Virus record (IMG/VR): IMGVR_UViG_3300027995_000005
Coordinates: 1 to 23,338 of that record
Source of the DNA: a virus
DNA: 23,338 bases
Direction: 5' to 3' (one strand)
Positions within the stretch are counted from its first letter, which is position 1. Each line of letters opens with the position of its first letter. Of this stretch, positions 1 to 23,323 are shown one piece after another. The translations under genes and the position numbers were made by a program. The notes beneath the pieces were generated by a model. It saw only the letters and a list, made by a program, of their open reading frames with translations, searched no databases and had not been told where the DNA came from.

Positions 1-3000
1 GTTGCCGATGCCGTTACCATCGCTGCGATACATGCCGGTCTCGACAATGCCACCGCCCAGGTTGGACGGTAGCACCTCGATCACGCGCTGCATACCGCGC
101 TGAAAGTCTTCGTTCTTGAGCCCGGGGATGAGATTCAGAATGCGCACGCCGTTGGGTGTGTACCCGGGCGCAGCGTCCCACGTACCGAACATCAGATTCA
201 TGCGGTCATACACCAGGCGCATTTCCGCCTCGGTGAGGGCGCGCGCGGTGCGAATCTCAACGGCGTTGCTCGCTTTTTTCGAGCTATCCCATACCGGCTT
301 ATGCCACCCCACCATGTCTTGCGAGAGGACGTAGCCGCGCAGGGCGCTATACAGATCGAGTCGTGATCTCGCCACGTCCTTCACGGCGCGCTTCGCGCCC
401 TGGCCTTCGCTCGGCACCGGGGTGAACTGCTGCACGCCTGCGCCGACATCTCCCTCCCAGGCGCTGAAGCCCTGCATTGAAATGCCCTGCGCCAAGCCGA
501 CCGCTTGCGCGACAAGATCCACACCGTTCTCGGTCAACGCGGCTTGCACGGCCTGCAGATACTCTGCTTTCTCGGCGGTGCTGGCTTTGTGGATGCCTGG
601 CAGCACGTTGCTCCGCACGCCCGGGGTCGCCTCCCACGAGATTTGCGCCGAGATCGCGTGCAGCGTATCGGCGTAATCCTGCTTTGCAGTGTTCACGGCC
701 GCATCGGTGATCTGCTGCGCCATGCCGAACGCGTGCGCGAAGCGGTAGTGATCGTACTTCTTCTCCTTCAGGACCGCGCCCTCGGTATCGAGCCAGCCTT
801 TTTTCTTCTCCGCCGCCTTCAGTTCATCGCGGTAAGGGTCAATGCGCGCACGCATCGCCGTCCAGATCGCCGCCTGCACCTGATGGGCGTTCCAGCCCAA
901 TTCATCACCAAGCAGCGCGATCTCGCGCTCCATGAAGCCGTAGCGCTCGCCCTGGCCGATCTTGTTGTAGCCGTAGTCGAACGCGATGGACATCCACATA
1001 TCCATCGTCGAGTTATCCTTGTTCAGCACGCTCGGGTCGATCTCGACCATAAGATTCTGATAGAACGAGTTGACCTTGGTGGACTCGACGATCTCGCCGC
1101 GATCCATCAACGCCTGCGCCTTCACGTCGTTCTTCGTAAAGCCGGCACTGATCGGCACGCCAGCTTTATGCTGGTAGTACGCGGTGAGCGCCATCGCGGT
1201 GTTCGCCGCGACAGTGGCGTTCGGCGAGTAGATCGCGATCAGCGCGGCCAGCTTCTGCGCTTCGATCTTGTCGCCACCGACCATATTCAGGATCGCGCGC
1301 GAGCTGTTCTCGTACCAGAAGCGGCCGGCCGCGCCCTCTATTGCGAGCTGCTTCAGCTTGGCGCGGAGCTGCTCCATCCCCTCCGCCGGGTCTGTCTCGT
1401 TCACCCACTCGGGGGCGCCGACGATGGCGCCCGGGCGTGCTCCGCCTTTGGTGATGCGATGCTCCGCCGCGAACTGCTTGCGCTTGCTGGCTTGTGCAAA
1501 GCGCGTGAAGTCAAGCGAGCGCTCATCGACCTGCGACTTGAGCCACTGTTCCAGATCCAGGTCTTCTTTCTCCCGTCCGCTTGGCCCCATCAAGCGCTGC
1601 AGCTCGTCGAACGATACAAGCTGACCATCGTCCAGGACGTAAGTCAGTTTGCGCGGATCTAACCGCTCGTCGACCATGACCTCCGCTGCGCGACCGCTGG
1701 CGCTCTGCGCTTCAGCGGGCACGAGATAGCCCACGCCTTCGCCGTACAGCGGGAAACCTTCCGGGTCGATCGGGGCGGCGCTGATGCCAGGCCGACCCTC
1801 AGCATCCTTGCCGATAACCAGGTGTCCGGTACGCGCAATCGTCGCCAGCTCTCGGGTGCTAGCGCCGCGGAACGCAGTCCCTGGCGCGATGCGGCCGGAT
1901 TGCAGGTGCGTAAGTAGTGCGGCCTTGGTGGCGTCTTTGCGCGCCTGCAATTGCGCCTGGCTAAACGTCGCTAAGTCCGGGGCGTCGGCCTGGATTTCGA
2001 CGGCGTACTGCCTGAAGAGAACATCGGGCGTTACGCCGACGCGATGCGCGGTCGTGACAAAGAAGTCGGTCATGAGAGACGCATACGCACTGTTCACGTC
2101 CTTGCTGAACCTATTCGCCTGCCGGAGCTGCGCGGTGATGGCGTCCTTCACCAGATTTGCGCCCTCCCGGAACGGTGTGTTCGCTTCGTACTTCGCGAGC
2201 GCCTCCTGCGCCGCCTGCGCGAATACCTGCTCCTGATTCTGGAGGATGGCCTCCGCTTCGGGTAGAGTGAGGCCATCCTCCGAAGTCTTCGCATACTGTG
2301 CCAAGCCCGGGGCTTGGTTGGCGACATGCGCCACGTACTCGCCCACGGGGATTTGCACGTCGCCGCCGAGAGCCATCGCCTTCGCCGCCGCCTCGCGCGT
2401 CTCTGGAGCCAATTGGTCTAGTCTGACTTGTCCTTTCTGCACGGCCTGCGCGAACTGCGGGCCGTCTACATACAGGTGCGTCAGCTTGGAACCGCTCTGC
2501 TCGGCTGTGCGCTGCAGGTGCTCGGCGAACATGGCCGGGTCGCGCTCATTCAACTTGAGCCCGGCCGCAGCGGTGAGCACCTCGTTCGCCAGTTCGGCGT
2601 CCTGCACCGTGTTCTCGGCTTTGCGGAACATCAGCGCGGTGGAGTTTACGGCGCTGAAGAAGCCGGACGCGACGAGCGAGCCAAGCGCGGTCTGGTACAG
2701 CTCGCCCGGAAGCTGATCGAACATCTGCGCCCAGGTCTTATCGGGATTCGCTATGGCAGTGTCGGTGATCTCCTGCGCCACGGTGGTCGCCAGCTCGCCG
2801 CCCATGTCGCGCGCGAGGAAATTCACCGCGAACTCGCCGAGCTTCGTCTTGCCGAGGTGCTTGGACAAGTAGCCCATCGGCAGGAATTCAAATGCCGCCT
2901 CGGCGCCGCCGTACAGAATCTCGCCCATCAAGGCGTCGGTGATCGAGCCGCCGCGCGCCCGGATCTCGTGGTATTCGCCCACGCCGGCCTGTAAGCCGCC

Positions 3001-3828
3001 AATAGAGACGCCCAGGACCGGCATGCCGGCGAGCGACAGCGCGATGGTCGGAACGGTCGCCGCGAGCGACTGGACACCGCCATAGAGCCCCTGTAGCGTG
3101 GCGTTCTCGAAGTCCGGGGTGTCTCCGATCTGACGCGCGAGCGACCGCATGCGCTCATAGCGCGCGCCTTCGGCCAGTTCCTGATTGCCTGTGATGTCGC
3201 CGATCTGCCCGATGATGCCGAGATTGGTCTGATGCAGGCTCTCGAAGAACGTAGTGCGGACGCCCTGTTTCATCGCCTCCAGCGACCAGAACGCCTCGTC
3301 GAGCGAGCCCCACTTCAGCTTCTCTTGCTTCGGGGGATCGACTTGCTCGCCCCGATCGCGCATGAACTGCAGCTTGTACTTATTCGCGAGCGCGAGATTC
3401 TGCGCGCGCTCAGCCGCGACGTTCCTACGTTCGCGCTCTTCGATGGTGGACCGCACCCGGCCCATTTTCATCTCGACATCAGCGAGCTGCGGGATCTCGT
3501 CGTGCGCGGTCGCAGCGAAATGCGGATTCGTCGCCACGCTCTGCTTCAGGCTCGGGGCGCCCTCCAAGAGTTGCGCGTAGGTGATGCTCGCAGCCGCCTG
3601 CTTACGCGTCGGGTCGGACTTCACCGCGCCGCGCGTGATTCCGAGCTGGCTCGCGACACGCCCGCTCTCCGCGTACTCGTCGGGATTGTTGGCAACGCCT
3701 GCGCGGAGGTTCGTGCGAACACTAGCACGCTCCTGCTCTGCGAGAATCGAGTCGGCGATCTCATCCGGCGTATCGCCGGCCGCGTCGTCAGCTAGGCTCT
3801 CGATGTCCAGGTCTTCGTCGAAGTTCAC
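1..3828 (-). CDS. Giant internal virion protein, gp16-like (C-terminus outside window)
   Basis: The frame is open from a GTG at 3828 to the window edge, giving at least 1276 residues. The GTG overlaps the stop of the upstream gene (GTGA), which fixes the start. The N-terminal 230 residues or so are charged and helical. A hydrophobic, glycine-rich stretch around residues 253-280 could cross or insert in a membrane. About residues 650-740 begin with an FRGAS motif and end with acidic and YVLDDG segments, loosely like an ADP-ribosyltransferase fold. About residues 836-990 begin with a FWYENSS motif and contain IYSPNATVAANT and TMDMWM; they look like a conserved module that I cannot name. Size, position after two other internal virion proteins and T7-like order suggest a gp16-type ejected core protein that helps form the DNA conduit through the envelope. 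No lytic transglycosylase motif is evident in the visible part. Confidence 0.75.
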   Translation of the reverse strand, partial: MNFDEDLDIESLADDAAGDTPDEIADSILAEQERASVRTNLRAGVANNPDEYAESGRVASQLGITRGAVKSDPTRKQAAASITYAQLLEGAPSLKQSVATNPHFAATAHDEIPQLADVEMKMGRVRSTIEERERRNVAAERAQNLALANKYKLQFMRDRGEQVDPPKQEKLKWGSLDEAFWSLEAMKQGVRTTFFESLHQTNLGIIGQIGDITGNQELAEGARYERMRSLARQIGDTPDFENATLQGLYGGVQSLAATVPTIALSLAGMPVLGVSIGGLQAGVGEYHEIRARGGSITDALMGEILYGGAEAAFEFLPMGYLSKHLGKTKLGEFAVNFLARDMGGELATTVAQEITDTAIANPDKTWAQMFDQLPGELYQTALGSLVASGFFSAVNSTALMFRKAENTVQDAELANEVLTAAAGLKLNERDPAMFAEHLQRTAEQSGSKLTHLYVDGPQFAQAVQKGQVRLDQLAPETREAAAKAMALGGDVQIPVGEYVAHVANQAPGLAQYAKTSEDGLTLPEAEAILQNQEQVFAQAAQEALAKYEANTPFREGANLVKDAITAQLRQANRFSKDVNSAYASLMTDFFVTTAHRVGVTPDVLFRQYAVEIQADAPDLATFSQAQLQARKDATKAALLTHLQSGRIAPGTAFRGASTRELATIARTGHLVIGKDAEGRPGISAAPIDPEGFPLYGEGVGYLVPAEAQSASGRAAEVMVDERLDPRKLTYVLDDGQLVSFDELQRLMGPSGREKEDLDLEQWLKSQVDERSLDFTRFAQASKRKQFAAEHRITKGGARPGAIVGAPEWVNETDPAEGMEQLRAKLKQLAIEGAAGRFWYENSSRAILNMVGGDKIEAQKLAALIAIYSPNATVAANTAMALTAYYQHKAGVPISAGFTKNDVKAQALMDRGEIVESTKVNSFYQNLMVEIDPSVLNKDNSTMDMWMSIAFDYGYNKIGQGERYGFMEREIALLGDELGWNAHQVQAAIWTAMRARIDPYRDELKAAEKKKGWLDTEGAVLKEKKYDHYRFAHAFGMAQQITDAAVNTAKQDYADTLHAISAQISWEATPGVRSNVLPGIHKASTAEKAEYLQAVQAALTENGVDLVAQAVGLAQGISMQGFSAWEGDVGAGVQQFTPVPSEGQGAKRAVKDVARSRLDLYSALRGYVLSQDMVGWHKPVWDSSKKASNAVEIRTARALTEAEMRLVYDRMNLMFGTWDAAPGYTPNGVRILNLIPGLKNEDFQRGMQRVIEVLPSNLGGGIVETGMYRSDGNGIGN

Positions 3829-19388: not shown

Positions 19389-19850
19389 TTAGCGCTCCAC
19401 GTCGAGTCGTCGACCCCATACAGTTCCGATGCTCTCGTAGCCGAGAGATGCGAGCAGGGGGCCGAAGTTGTGGGTGTGCTTCACGTGGTGGTAGACGACT
19501 TGCACACCCTCCTCGCGCAAGCGCTCGTCACACCAGGTGATGAACTCTAAGCCGACCTTGCGCCCGCGAAGTTCGGGCACGAGGAACAATACGTCCTGCA
19601 CGGCCTGAAGTGAATCAGCGTGCTGAGTGCTCCGCGTTACAAAGAATCCGGCGTAGCCTACTAAGATCCCGTCACTCCGCACCGTGTAGAGGCGGAAATG
19701 ACCGGCGCGCTCCATCGCGTCGTACAGGTACTCGCTGACGTTCAGCGGGATGTCCTGATAGTGCGCGATCTCGCGCCAATGACGCTCGGTCAGGGGTCTC
19801 AGATCAGGCCAGCATTCGTATACTCTCTCGCGGTCAAACGCATGTGCCAT
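19389..19850 (-). CDS. GNAT-family acetyltransferase
   Basis: The 153-residue product starts at ATG 19850. It has the GNAT layout: alpha helix at 39-50, strands RLYTVRSD and GILVGYAGFFVT, a long strand VQDVLFLVPELRGRKVG with the acetyl-CoA-binding loop R95-G-R-K-V-G100, helix LEFITWCDERLREEG, strand VQVVYHHV and then N-F-G-PLLASLGYESIGTVWGR, the usual end. Residues 95-100 stand in for the R/Q-x-x-G-x-G/A motif. It should transfer an acetyl group from acetyl-CoA to an amine; the target cannot be read. Similar proteins occur between TerL and portal in other podoviruses. It has a promoter-like element upstream and ends 2 bases before the next start. Confidence 0.8.
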   Translation of the reverse strand: MAHAFDRERVYECWPDLRPLTERHWREIAHYQDIPLNVSEYLYDAMERAGHFRLYTVRSDGILVGYAGFFVTRSTQHADSLQAVQDVLFLVPELRGRKVGLEFITWCDERLREEGVQVVYHHVKHTHNFGPLLASLGYESIGTVWGRRLDVER

Positions 19851-19855
19851 TGGTC

Positions 19856-19874
19856 ACTCGCCCTAAGTGTATCA
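19856..19874 (-). promoter_or_regulatory. Promoter-like element (extended -10), copy B
   Basis: The minus strand reads TGA, TACACT, TAGGGCGAGT, then GACCA and the ATG of the acetyltransferase gene. The TGA is also the stop of the preceding gene. TGnTACACT fits an extended -10. The 16 bases at 19856-19871 differ from copy A (12133-12148) only by two transitions, and bases further upstream also partly agree (GTG at the same distance). The AGGG may alternatively be the ribosome site. Confidence 0.45.
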
Positions 19875-20348
19875 CAGTTTTTCACGATCTGTGCGGCCGC
19901 GATTAAGTGGCGGTTTTCCCGGGGCTTTCTCCCATACCTCGTCGCCCGGGGTGTAGCCGCGGCGCCGCAGGGCCTCGCCCCCGACACCGTCCACCAGCGT
20001 GAAGGTGACGTAGTCGAACCGGCGTGCGTGCTCATCGAACGCGGCGAGCAGCCGCGCCGCTGCGCTCGTGTGCTTGTACTTGCGCGCCACCCACCAGAGC
20101 GCACACGACAGCGTGCGCATCTCACGGAAGAGATGCTGCCCGGTGAACGCCAGCAAAAACCCAACACGCTCGTGCGCGTTGTTGTAGCACACCAGCACGA
20201 GCTGTCCCTCGTCGATGTATTTGCGCAATCGCCACTCGGCGTACGGCCCTTCCGGGGTGATGTGATCGGCGTTGTGGTATTCGCTCAGCGCCATGCACTC
20301 CTGGATGATCCAGGGCACGTCACTCCAACTCGCGCGCTCGACTCTCAT
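19872..20348 (-). CDS. GNAT-like acetyltransferase, second copy
   Basis: The ATG overlaps the TerL stop (ATGA). The 158-residue product has a GNAT-type opening (MRVERASWSDVPWIIQECMA), strands around LVLVCYNNAHERVGFLLAF, and LSCALWWVARKYKHTSAAAR leading into a helix LLAAFDEHARR, strand FDYVTFTLV and an end with ALRRRGYTPGDEVWEK. The order strand, R-x-Y-K-x-x-S-x-A-A loop, helix agrees with the acetyl-CoA site, but the loop lacks the standard G-x-G/A, with T/S-A-A in its place. It may thus be a diverged or altered enzyme. It differs from its neighbour too much for a recent duplication. Target unknown. The last 15 residues are basic and probably disordered. Confidence 0.65.
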   Translation of the reverse strand: MRVERASWSDVPWIIQECMALSEYHNADHITPEGPYAEWRLRKYIDEGQLVLVCYNNAHERVGFLLAFTGQHLFREMRTLSCALWWVARKYKHTSAAARLLAAFDEHARRFDYVTFTLVDGVGGEALRRRGYTPGDEVWEKAPGKPPLNRGRTDREKL

Positions 20349-21925
20349 CTGCGTAGGACCTTCGGGTCGAAGGGGTTGTACTCGCGCGTCTTCGCCGCGC
20401 GCCCCAGGGCGGTGATGGCCTCCAGCTTAGGCGTCTCCATGCGCGCGTAGATGTACGCCGACGCCAGGTCAGGCGACTTGCCGAGACGCTTCGGGTCGAG
20501 CAGATCGTCGCGGCCCTCCACGTAGATCGACTTGCCTTTCAGCATCCAACGCGGCATGCATAGCTCGAACTCAAGCTGCTGATCAGGTGGCAGCGCGATG
20601 CCTCGATTGTTCTTGGGGTCGAGATCCTCGCGCATGCGCCACCACATGAGCGAGCGCAGGTTGTAGAACAGCAGCATACCCGACTGATCGGTCTGCCCCG
20701 GCGTACTCGTGGCGTTCTTGAGCCCGACTACCTGCAGTCCCTGCTCGTTCAGGAAGTCGTACGGACTCGCACCGATGCCGTCCACGTCGATGTGGATCAC
20801 CGCGCGGTCGCGCAGATGCATGATGCACAGTGCCGCCACCTTCGGGCCGTCGGGCGTCGCGAGCCCCGGATAGAGGAGCGGCACATCGTACCACGTGCCG
20901 TGGCGACGCGCGATCACAGTGCGGTCCGGCCCGCCGCGCGCCGGGTCGCACCCGAGCGAGTCCATCGGCTCGTAGCGATCGGGCTTTTTCCAGCGCGCCA
21001 TCGCGGCCTTCACCCACTCGCGCGGGATCACCTGCATCGCGTCGTCCTGAATCCCGGCGCTCATGTCGCCGTAGAGCATCTGCGAGCGCAGGGGCTCGGG
21101 GAGTGCTTGTAGCTGTGCCATATAGCCTGTCCCATGCAGGAAGGGATTGTGCCCCACGAGCGCGGGGATGAACGTGCGCGACTGCGGGATCACTAACTCA
21201 TCATTGAACACGAACTGCCGGCCGTCAAGCACCTCGCGTTCGCCGTCGACGCCTTTCATGAGCGCGAACCAGCGCAGTTCCCCCGGCATCGCAGGTAGCG
21301 GGTACGTCGGGTCGAGCCAGGGCGCGTAGAAATCGATGATCCACCGGCACTCCATGCGCGTCGGCGGGTTGAAGCACATGAGCGTCTGGCAGTGCTGCCG
21401 CGGGTCGACCGTGCGCACCCATCCCATGAGGAAGCGCACCGGGCCTTCGGTCCACTCGCCCGCCTCGTCGATCACGAGCTGGTCCTTCGGACGGCCGCGA
21501 TACTTGCGCTCGTCGCCGGGGTTGGGAACGCTGCCGAAGTCGAACTGCACGCGCCGACCGCGCGATGCGTGCGCGGGCACGCGCCAGATGCGGGACTGCG
21601 CGTTGAACCCGTCGCGCGAGCCGATGATCTCTTCCAGGCGATCGTACACGGCGGCCAACTCCGTGCCGTCCACGCGCATGTACTGAATGCGTTGATGCTT
21701 GCTGAGCCCCTTGCCGACTGCCAGGTCGGTCTTGCCCCCGCCCGCGCCACCACCGTAGCCGAGGATGTCGGCCATGCAATCGTACGCCAGGCGCTGCGGA
21801 CCCGGGAGGGGGCGCCACGGCTCGCGCAGCATGTCCTCGCCGACCAGCGAGAGTAGCTCCAGGCGCTCGCTCGCTGAGGCGTGCTTCAGTAGCTCACGGA
21901 CTTCGGCGGGGAATAGACGTGCCAA
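20345..21925 (-). CDS. Terminase large subunit
   Basis: The 526-residue protein has all key motor and nuclease motifs. The Walker A loop is GGGAGGGKT at residues 58-66. Walker B is LVIDEAGE (150-157) with the catalytic Glu after Asp. Motif III of the ATPase is near FNPP (185-188). The nuclease has GCDPARGGPD (325-334, with D327), HIDVDGIGAS (378-387) and SPDLASA (484-490). It packages DNA into the procapsid through the portal. The start is a TTG at 21925, one base from the previous stop; the next ATG (residue 32) would cut the N-terminal helix, so TTG is preferred, with GGTGG about 5 bases upstream. No small subunit is recognised upstream, which is unusual. Confidence 0.92.
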   Translation of the reverse strand: MARLFPAEVRELLKHASASERLELLSLVGEDMLREPWRPLPGPQRLAYDCMADILGYGGGAGGGKTDLAVGKGLSKHQRIQYMRVDGTELAAVYDRLEEIIGSRDGFNAQSRIWRVPAHASRGRRVQFDFGSVPNPGDERKYRGRPKDQLVIDEAGEWTEGPVRFLMGWVRTVDPRQHCQTLMCFNPPTRMECRWIIDFYAPWLDPTYPLPAMPGELRWFALMKGVDGEREVLDGRQFVFNDELVIPQSRTFIPALVGHNPFLHGTGYMAQLQALPEPLRSQMLYGDMSAGIQDDAMQVIPREWVKAAMARWKKPDRYEPMDSLGCDPARGGPDRTVIARRHGTWYDVPLLYPGLATPDGPKVAALCIMHLRDRAVIHIDVDGIGASPYDFLNEQGLQVVGLKNATSTPGQTDQSGMLLFYNLRSLMWWRMREDLDPKNNRGIALPPDQQLEFELCMPRWMLKGKSIYVEGRDDLLDPKRLGKSPDLASAYIYARMETPKLEAITALGRAAKTREYNPFDPKVLRR

Positions 21926-22114: not shown

Positions 22115-22392
22115 TTGTGTCGCCACTTCACCGGCCTCCAGTCTAGCGGGAACCCGTACCGCGTCTCGTCCCCCGCGCACGCATACGCTCGGCAAGCCTG
22201 CGGTCGCGTCTCGAAGATGAGGCACCTGTTAGATCCGCTAATGTGGGGACAGGACCCATCCTTGCGCGGCGCGAATCCAATAGCGCGTACGTTCTCGGCA
22301 TCACGGCAGCAAGCAGCATTGCAACCACGAGCGAGGCCGTCGTCGCAATCCACGAGCTTCTCATGGTCCGGCGCCCTCACTTGGGCCATCAC
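22111..22392 (-). CDS. YkgJ-like cysteine-cluster protein
   Basis: The start is GTG 22392 (GTGA overlap with the upstream stop) or the ATG directly after it at 22389. The 93-residue product has the cysteine pattern of the YkgJ/UPF0153 family: C-x7-C-x3-CC near residues 16-29, then SCPHIS, RCLIFETRPQACRAYAC. The last part, C-x(7)-RP-x-x-CR-x-Y-x-C, is the family's strongest mark. The eight or so cysteines and the histidine should bind zinc or iron. Biochemical role is not settled for the family. In a phage, it might protect a metal site or modify a host protein; that is inference. It is followed by another zinc protein gene. Confidence 0.75.
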   Translation of the reverse strand: MMAQVRAPDHEKLVDCDDGLARGCNAACCRDAENVRAIGFAPRKDGSCPHISGSNRCLIFETRPQACRAYACAGDETRYGFPLDWRPVKWRHK

Positions 22393-22895
22393 GCGGGTGT
22401 TTGCTCGTCGCCCGGACCCATTGCACGGTAGAACTCCGCACTGTGGTCCACGTCATCGGTCTTCGGGTCATTGGGCGTGAGCGCCTCGGCCATGTTGGAC
22501 GCGGCCCGCAGTTCCCGGCCTGGTGCGGCCATGCTCGGGGCGGCGCTGAGATCCACCTGCACCTCGCCTTGCATGCCCGTCTGCCGATTGAGATGTTGTT
22601 GCATGTGCCACGCCTCAGTGCGGACGATCGCCTGCGTCTGCACCGCGAGGTACTGCATGATCGTCTTCGCGAGGATGAAGTCGGGCATGTTGCCGAAGTG
22701 CTGCTCCATGCTGTGCTTGTTGATCGCGACGCGCAGATCCTCCTGGAACGCGGCGAACTTCTCGCGCACCTGCTGCACCAGTGCCTCCTTCTCGGCGGCG
22801 AGCTTCTCGCGCATCTGCTGCGCCAGTACCGCCCTCTCGGCCGAGTCCATCTTGAGTTGTTGGATCTCGGCTTCCCTGCGTTTTGCTTCGCCCAT
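22389..22895 (-). CDS. MGEAKRR coiled-coil protein
   Basis: Two close ATG codons (22901 and 22895) are possible. AGGAG lies only 1-2 bases before the first but 7 before the second, so MGEAKRREAEIQQLKMDSAE is the better start, giving 168 residues. Residues about 10-60 are a heptad-type coiled coil with internal repeats (AQQMREKLAAEKE and VQQVREKFAAFQE). Next comes a helical segment with HFGNMPDFILAKTIMQYLAV and then a polar, probably disordered end. The MGEAKRR opening occurs in short proteins of many phages and bacteria without a known function. It lies three genes before TerL, so it could be an unrecognised small terminase (coiled coil, no DNA-binding motif seen), but that is weak. Confidence 0.65.
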   Translation of the reverse strand: MGEAKRREAEIQQLKMDSAERAVLAQQMREKLAAEKEALVQQVREKFAAFQEDLRVAINKHSMEQHFGNMPDFILAKTIMQYLAVQTQAIVRTEAWHMQQHLNRQTGMQGEVQVDLSAAPSMAAPGRELRAASNMAEALTPNDPKTDDVDHSAEFYRAMGPGDEQTPA

Positions 22896-22911: not shown

Positions 22912-22986
22912 TGGTTGCGGGGGCAGGAATCAAACCTGCGCCTAGCGGGTTATGGCCCCGCTGCTCTATCACTGAGCTACCCCGCC
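22912..22986 (-). tRNA. tRNA-Met (CAT), initiator-like, CCA encoded
   Basis: The minus strand folds into a full cloverleaf of 75 bases including CCA. Acceptor GGCGGGG pairs with CCCCGCA except for G1 x A72. The D stem is GCTC/GAGC and the T stem GCAGG/CCTGC. The anticodon arm is GCGGG, loop GCCATAA, CCCGC, with CAT at 22952-22954. Discriminator A73 and ACCA follow. The unpaired 1-72 ends, G2:C71, C3:G70, G4:C69 and three G:C pairs above the anticodon are the marks of bacterial initiator tRNA. Differences are C33 for U33, C11:G24 instead of purine:pyrimidine, and A19 with T56 in place of G19:C56. It starts 1 base after a stop codon. Confidence 0.9.
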
Positions 22987-22987
22987 G

Positions 22988-23323
22988 TTAGATCGTAACC
23001 CCGTTGCACTTCGCCTTGAGCCACTCGATGAAACCCTTGGCCTGGCGCCGCACGTACACCTCTGCAATCAGCGCGCGCAACTCTGCCGCATGCTCGGCGG
23101 TCACCTGGCCCTTTTCCTCGGCCTCGTCGATGACGGCCACCCACTCGTCCTGCGTGAGCAGCGGCGCCCACTCGGCTATCACCTCAGCCTCGCAGCGCGG
23201 CGTATCGCCGAGCGCGGCGTTTGCAGGGAGCGTGGCGAGAAACGCACCTGCGAGGCCACCAAGCGTCAGTACGAGCGCTATCACCAGGATCATCGCGTAC
23301 TCTTTTGCTCTCTCACTCCACAT
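22988..23323 (-). CDS. Small membrane or secreted protein, 111 aa
   Basis: The ATG at 23323 has TAGGAGG about 9 bases upstream. The 111-residue product has a short charged start (MWSERAKEY) and a hydrophobic segment AMILVIALVLTLGGLAGAFL that continues to ATLPANAALG. It is either a signal anchor with the rest outside, or a signal peptide cut near ANA-A. The rest is acidic and helical (EVIAEWAPLLTQDEWVAVID, TAEHAAELRALIAEVYVRRQ) and ends in a Lys-rich helix with one cysteine. The layout is also that of an inner-membrane spanin (N-terminal TM with helix), but I see no outer partner and no typical repeat. Not recognised. The stop codon is one base from the tRNA. Confidence 0.6.
   Translation of the reverse strand: MWSERAKEYAMILVIALVLTLGGLAGAFLATLPANAALGDTPRCEAEVIAEWAPLLTQDEWVAVIDEAEEKGQVTAEHAAELRALIAEVYVRRQAKGFIEWLKAKCNGVTI

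Follow-up and report, generated by a model that had tools for sequence, protein, structure and literature searches.

The only tRNA gene in a linear virus record from IMG/VR raises the question of whether a phage tRNA with a CAU anticodon serves to start proteins or to extend them. The window, the whole stretch of 23,338 nt that was analysed (63% GC), comes from a phage of the Burkholderia BcepC6B / Bordetella BPP-1 type by protein similarity: the major head protein is 66.7% identical to that of BcepC6B, and the portal protein is about 51% identical to that of BPP-1. Any assignment of a host draws solely on these two phage relatives. ARAGORN finds a single tRNA in the window, Met(CAT) at 22912-22986 on the minus strand, and Rfam RF00005 matches it with 53 bits (E 5.5e-9). 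A preliminary description of the locus proposed a hybrid initiator on the strength of G1xA72, G2:C71, C3:G70, G4:C69, A73, three G:C pairs in the anticodon stem (3GC), an elongator-like C11:G24 and C33; each of these bases is correctly read. The tRNA lies on the same strand as the structural genes, and its parts and neighbours are as follows.

22912 to 22986, minus strand: tRNA(CAU), 72 nt plus encoded CCA, chimeric, the acceptor end and 3GC stem being of initiator type and the body of elongator-Met type
22980 to 22986, minus strand: 5' acceptor strand GGCGGGG, G1 unpaired with A72
22915 to 22922, minus strand: 3' acceptor strand CCCCGCA plus A73, with A72 opposite G1 and pairs C71:G2, G70:C3 and C69:G4
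22963 to 22977, minus strand: D arm GCUC-AGUGAUA-GAGC, with elongator-type C11:G24; A19 replaces G19
22945 to 22961, minus strand: anticodon arm GCGGG-GCCAUAA-CCCGC, with a complete 3GC stem and G32 C33 C34 A35 U36 A37 A38
22923 to 22939, minus strand: T arm GCAGG-UUUGAUU-CCUGC; U56 replaces C56 and can pair with A19
22988 to 23323, minus strand: upstream gene of 111 aa, with AGGAGG 8 nt before its ATG
22389 to 22895, minus strand: downstream gene of about 168 aa, with AGGAG between the tRNA CCA and its ATG
20345 to 21925, minus strand: terminase large subunit, whose relatives have no CAU tRNA beside it

In full, the molecule reads GGCGGGG UA GCUC AGUGAUA GAGC A GCGGG GCCAUAA CCCGC UAGGC GCAGG UUUGAUU CCUGC CCCCGCA A CCA, and its 3GC pairs are G29:C41, G30:C40 and G31:C39. 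Beyond the bases already described, it carries G32, A19:U56 in place of G19:C56, and an encoded CCA. The loop GCCAUAA followed by CCC at 39-41 was found in IMG/VR only in this phage, including its second contig. Predicted folding (-36.2 kcal/mol, z -3.1, with 0 of 200 shuffles as good) forms the pairs from 2:71 to 7:66 and leaves 1:72 open. The elbow is informative about upkeep. Only 10 of about 2,300 classified tRNAs have U56, and GA in the D loop accompanies it in 9 of 10 cases, compared with 9 of 2296 tRNAs with C56, so the pair covaries and the window tRNA has both halves. This double change argues for a tRNA that has been kept functional and able to fold. Across several amino-acid types, about 9 of 2,300 tRNAs appear to have exchanged the near-universal G19:C56 for A19:U56, a compensated change that recurs.

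For class assignment, cellular CAU tRNAs were drawn from five groups, each being the phylum or class to which a named starting genome belongs. Unsupervised clustering splits them cleanly into 49 initiators and an elongator/Ile2 cluster (79 plus one outlier). Log-odds were calculated per position with each scored tRNA left out of training; three ambiguous cellular tRNAs (L479, L480 and L585) were excluded from the training sets, and an acceptor-sequence rule, rather than experiment, separated the Met and Ile2 sets. The acceptor of the window tRNA scores +14.9, within the initiator range and above the best cellular elongator (+6.1), and combines the absence of a Watson-Crick 1:72 pair with the initiator-type G2:C71, C3:G70, G4:C69 and A73. 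All 80 tRNAs of the elongator/Ile2 cluster are paired at 1:72, where G:C or G:U is the elongator state. A complete 3GC stem, also present here, is found in 40 of the 49 cellular initiators and in 1 of 83 cellular CAU tRNAs without R11:Y24; that sole exception, L480, is itself initiator-like at 1:72. None of the 80 cluster members unites a 1:72 mismatch, the full 3GC stem and C33, the last standing where elongators have U33.

The rest of the molecule points the other way. The initiator pair R11:Y24 (A11:U24) is replaced by C11:G24, the D arm, variable loop and T arm together score -37.3, in the elongator range (initiator minimum +24.8), and the anticodon arm falls in the overlap zone at -2.0. 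Over all positions the score is -24.3, against 26 to 91 for initiators (minimum +26.0) and -144 to -31 for elongators. Covariance models built here give 71.1 bits for elongator-Met, 63.2 for initiator and 58.5 for Ile2. Between these two models, held-out elongator-Met tRNAs show a difference of 12 to 33 bits in favour of elongator-Met and held-out initiators one of 28 to 30 bits in favour of initiator; at 8 bits, the window tRNA is intermediate. The preliminary description had suggested such a comparison, with placement among elongator or Ile2 tRNAs counting against an initiator; the elongator-Met model is indeed favoured, weakly, and Ile2 is disfavoured. The proposed hybrid initiator thus stands as anatomy (acceptor +14.9, body -37.3) and falls short as a whole-molecule class. 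A sound description is a chimera in which an initiator-type acceptor and 3GC stem are joined to an elongator-Met D arm, variable loop and T arm. The covariance ranking makes the tRNA look like an elongator by descent, with initiator elements gained.

Bacterial tRNA-fMet (for example E. coli metY) shares the 1:72 mismatch, G2:C71, C3:G70, G4:C69, A73, 3GC, CAU and CCA; the window tRNA differs from it in C11:G24 rather than A11:U24, in G32 C33, in G1 (0 of 49 sampled cellular initiators) and in its elongator-type A26, G27:C43, U44 and D arm. Among cellular sequences the closest is an elongator tRNA-Met (L528, GGCGGUG UA GCUC ... GAGC A GCGGA AUCAUAA UCCGC ... CACCGCU), 12 differences away, with a G1:U72 wobble and a GCGGA/UCCGC anticodon stem. 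The two share the D stem, A26, G27:C43, the T stem GCAGG/CCUGC and the acceptor strand GGCGG.G, and differ at A72/U72, G31:C39/A31:U39, G32 C33/A32 U33, A19:U56/G19:C56 and the variable loop. Among INPHARED phages, the nearest tRNA is that of Bradyrhizobium phage BDU-MI-1, with G1:C72 and U33. An engineered E. coli elongator tRNA-Met with C1xA72 and 3GC combines the same two kinds of change with an elongator body (PMC7949028); the window tRNA is natural and phage-borne, has G1xA72 instead of C1xA72, and adds C33.

Start-type tRNAs are common in phages; the hybrid build of the window tRNA is unusual. Phage-borne initiator features are known from the tRNA-fMet of T5 and cyanophages (PMC4810235), and Sinorhizobium prophages also encode tRNA-fMet (PMC12429752). 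IMG/VR scans add many more; their patterns require CAUAA and a variable loop of 5 nt, their fractions are estimates, and their counts are inflated by related contigs. A mismatched 1:72 is seen in an estimated 32 of 90 distinct viral CAU tRNAs, about a third, among the matches listed in a scan unselected for stem or base 33, and for CAU tRNAs the earlier statement that most phage tRNAs are elongators goes too far. A scan requiring 3GC returns mostly A11:U24 molecules, among at least 120 viral contigs, and most of these A11:U24 phage initiators differ from the window tRNA in keeping the initiator D arm and U33. G1xA72 makes up a quarter of the viral mismatched CAU tRNAs (8 of 32), compared with 0 of 49 cellular initiators. 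The closest phage hybrids (L781, L451, PfAn1 (L003), L783, L805, L789, L795 and L798) share an elongator-type D stem, a mismatched 1:72 and C33. Among them only Pseudomonas phage PfAn1, whose 1:72 is a weak U1:A72, has GGG/CCC at 29-31/39-41 (loop CCCAUAC), and none has the GCCAUAA loop. L781 (IMG/VR 3300037852_000521) and L451 (3300003187_000009) have G1xA72 and lack the full 3GC stem. No other tRNA with all of the unusual marks was found in these scans; each mark recurs in phages.

C33 had been presented as a vertebrate-like base unusual for bacteria. Initiators of Weissella, Leuconostoc, Fructobacillus, Erysipelotrichaceae, Phycisphaerae, Patescibacteria and archaea have it natively, which rules it out as a vertebrate-like or phage-only mark. 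Convivina, Fructilactobacillus and Thermoplasmata/DPANN archaea (L242, L244, L253, L274 and others) also have C33 initiators. CAU tRNAs with C33 are absent from 398 Pseudomonadota genomes, each with about three matching CAU tRNAs by an earlier sample, and C33 occurs in 8 of 80 phage loci with 3GC, about 10% among the matches listed. In viral CAU tRNAs, C33 accompanies a mismatched 1:72 (38 of 49, compared with 30 of 87 with U33; Fisher p 2e-6, ignoring relatedness) and A11:U24 (34 of 49, compared with 22 of 87). Among those with an elongator D stem, the mismatch is found in 8 of 23 with C33 and 2 of 28 with U33 (p 0.03, again ignoring relatedness). C33 in phages therefore tracks initiator traits and is not diagnostic of them: 12 of the 23 elongator-armed C33 tRNAs keep a G:C pair at 1:72, which weakens C33 as proof of initiation.

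The gene fits tightly into an operon. The TAA stop of the upstream gene ends 1 nt before tRNA position 1, and the downstream gene, which has no match in a PHROG comparison, has its AGGAG only a few bases beyond the CCA and starts 10-16 nt past the tRNA. The same phage is represented by a second contig, with 99.7% identity across 6 kb, that carries an identical tRNA; the tRNA was found only in these two. None of 79 terminase-related contigs, many but not all of which reach 1-4 kb upstream of the terminase gene, has a CAU tRNA near it, indicating that the tRNA is an accessory gain; its restriction to one phage and a near-identical contig shows no long-term conservation.

EF-Tu disfavours tRNAs that are open at 1:72, and U33 matters mainly in A-site decoding. 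The favoured reading of the window tRNA, held with a probability of about 0.6 and resting on sequence comparison, is a converted elongator tRNA-Met, charged with methionine through CAU and used mainly for initiation as an accessory initiator. From an elongator tRNA-Met ancestor, the changes U72 to A72, A31:U39 to G31:C39 and U33 to C33 would account for the initiator-like marks. Opening the top acceptor pair with A72 would give a formyltransferase substrate disfavoured by EF-Tu, G31:C39 would complete the 3GC stem and help P-site use, and C33 would be compatible with P-site use. The direction of this presumed descent and the order of changes are taken from the profile and the closest sequence rather than a tree, for which 75 nt carry too little signal. 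The tRNA would be co-transcribed in the operon and cut out by RNase P, and would enlarge the fMet-tRNA pool while phage proteins are made; boosted initiation may be the plainest benefit to the phage.

Published transplants bear on this reading. Moving a mismatched 1:72 and 3GC into E. coli elongator tRNA-Met or tRNA-Gln leads to initiation, 3GC acts in the step from the 30S to the 70S complex, and formylation is helped by G2:C71, C3:G70 and A11:U24 (PMC7949028, a review), while CAU is enough for MetRS (PMC9976931). From the transplants and the sufficiency of CAU, the phage tRNA should take methionine, probably be formylated, perhaps more poorly without A11:U24, and act at start codons. Use as an initiator is favoured by the joint presence of every acceptor and anticodon-stem initiator element, by the encoded CCA and by the tight fit of the gene in its operon; the lead of the elongator-Met model and the replacement of a formylation helper by C11:G24 count against it. 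The further idea that the phage biases host starts, offered with a claim of many GTG and TTG starts, finds no support: a crude Shine-Dalgarno-based call in 27 genes gives about 19 ATG, 6 GTG and 2 TTG, nothing striking at 63% GC.

The same elongator-Met scores for body and whole molecule would suit a tRNA that still elongates, or serves both uses, and has drifted, with G1xA72 and G31:C39 incidental and internal AUG codons as its targets. The nearest cellular tRNA is an elongator, the paired 1:72 and U33 of the BDU-MI-1 tRNA fit this account, and where Fmt is low even true initiators elongate (PMC7949028). It is unlikely nonetheless, given acceptor log-odds above all control elongator/Ile2 tRNAs and a set of marks found in none of those 80, each paired at 1:72. 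An Ile2 identity, with lysidine at C34 and AUA as the codon read, shares the CAU anticodon and has precedents in the T4 and T5 lists (PMC4810235); the lowest of the three covariance scores leaves it very improbable.

Two further readings concern why the gene is carried. The tRNA might replace a host initiator that is cut by defence nucleases or blocked by toxins, its G32 C33 loop (instead of C32 U33) being resistant. This is compatible with a converted elongator, since it would give a reason for carrying an initiator, and it draws on VapC, which cuts the tRNA-fMet anticodon stem-loop, on AtaT, which acetylates Met-tRNA-fMet (PMC7180214), on the anticodon-loop changes of many phage tRNAs, proposed to evade nucleases (PMC10264068), and on the recurrence in phages of a base absent from the Pseudomonadota genomes. 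It is nevertheless improbable: VapC cleavage falls inside the anticodon or 3' of it (PMC7180214), where A37 A38 C39 are unchanged, phages generally avoid encoding tRNA-fMet where an fMet-specific VapC exists (PMC10264068), and no specific toxin, nuclease or host is tied to this phage. Alternatively, the gene could act in processing, as a tRNA-shaped RNase P site that splits the upstream from the downstream operon message, or be a passenger, a captured gene in decay. Either would suit a gene that begins 1 nt past one stop, leaves 10-16 nt to the following start and is missing from related phages; intact stems, the compensated elbow pair, the CCA in the gene and an initiator set unneeded for mere processing make this reading quite improbable.

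Read as a converted elongator, the window tRNA is an apparent natural counterpart of the classic engineering in which an elongator is made to initiate through 1:72 and 3GC, and it directs attention to a broad array of initiator-like tRNAs in phages, among which C33 accompanies initiator traits. A bolder generalization, speculative and on balance improbable, is that phages have repeatedly made private initiators from elongator tRNA-Met, with 1:72 opened, the anticodon stem strengthened and U33 replaced, and that the altered loop would permit starts when the host initiator is cut or blocked by defence toxins.

Elsewhere in the window, a block of plus-strand reading frames (505-3795) runs opposite to the structural genes and has no match in Pfam or PHROG. 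Two adjacent GNAT acetyltransferase genes (19389-19850 and 19872-20348, minus strand) lie between the terminase and portal genes, and contig L127 has relatives of both. A tie to initiator-acetylating toxins was considered for them and dropped; BPP-1 has one GNAT gene in the same position, so a GNAT gene there is a trait of this phage type.
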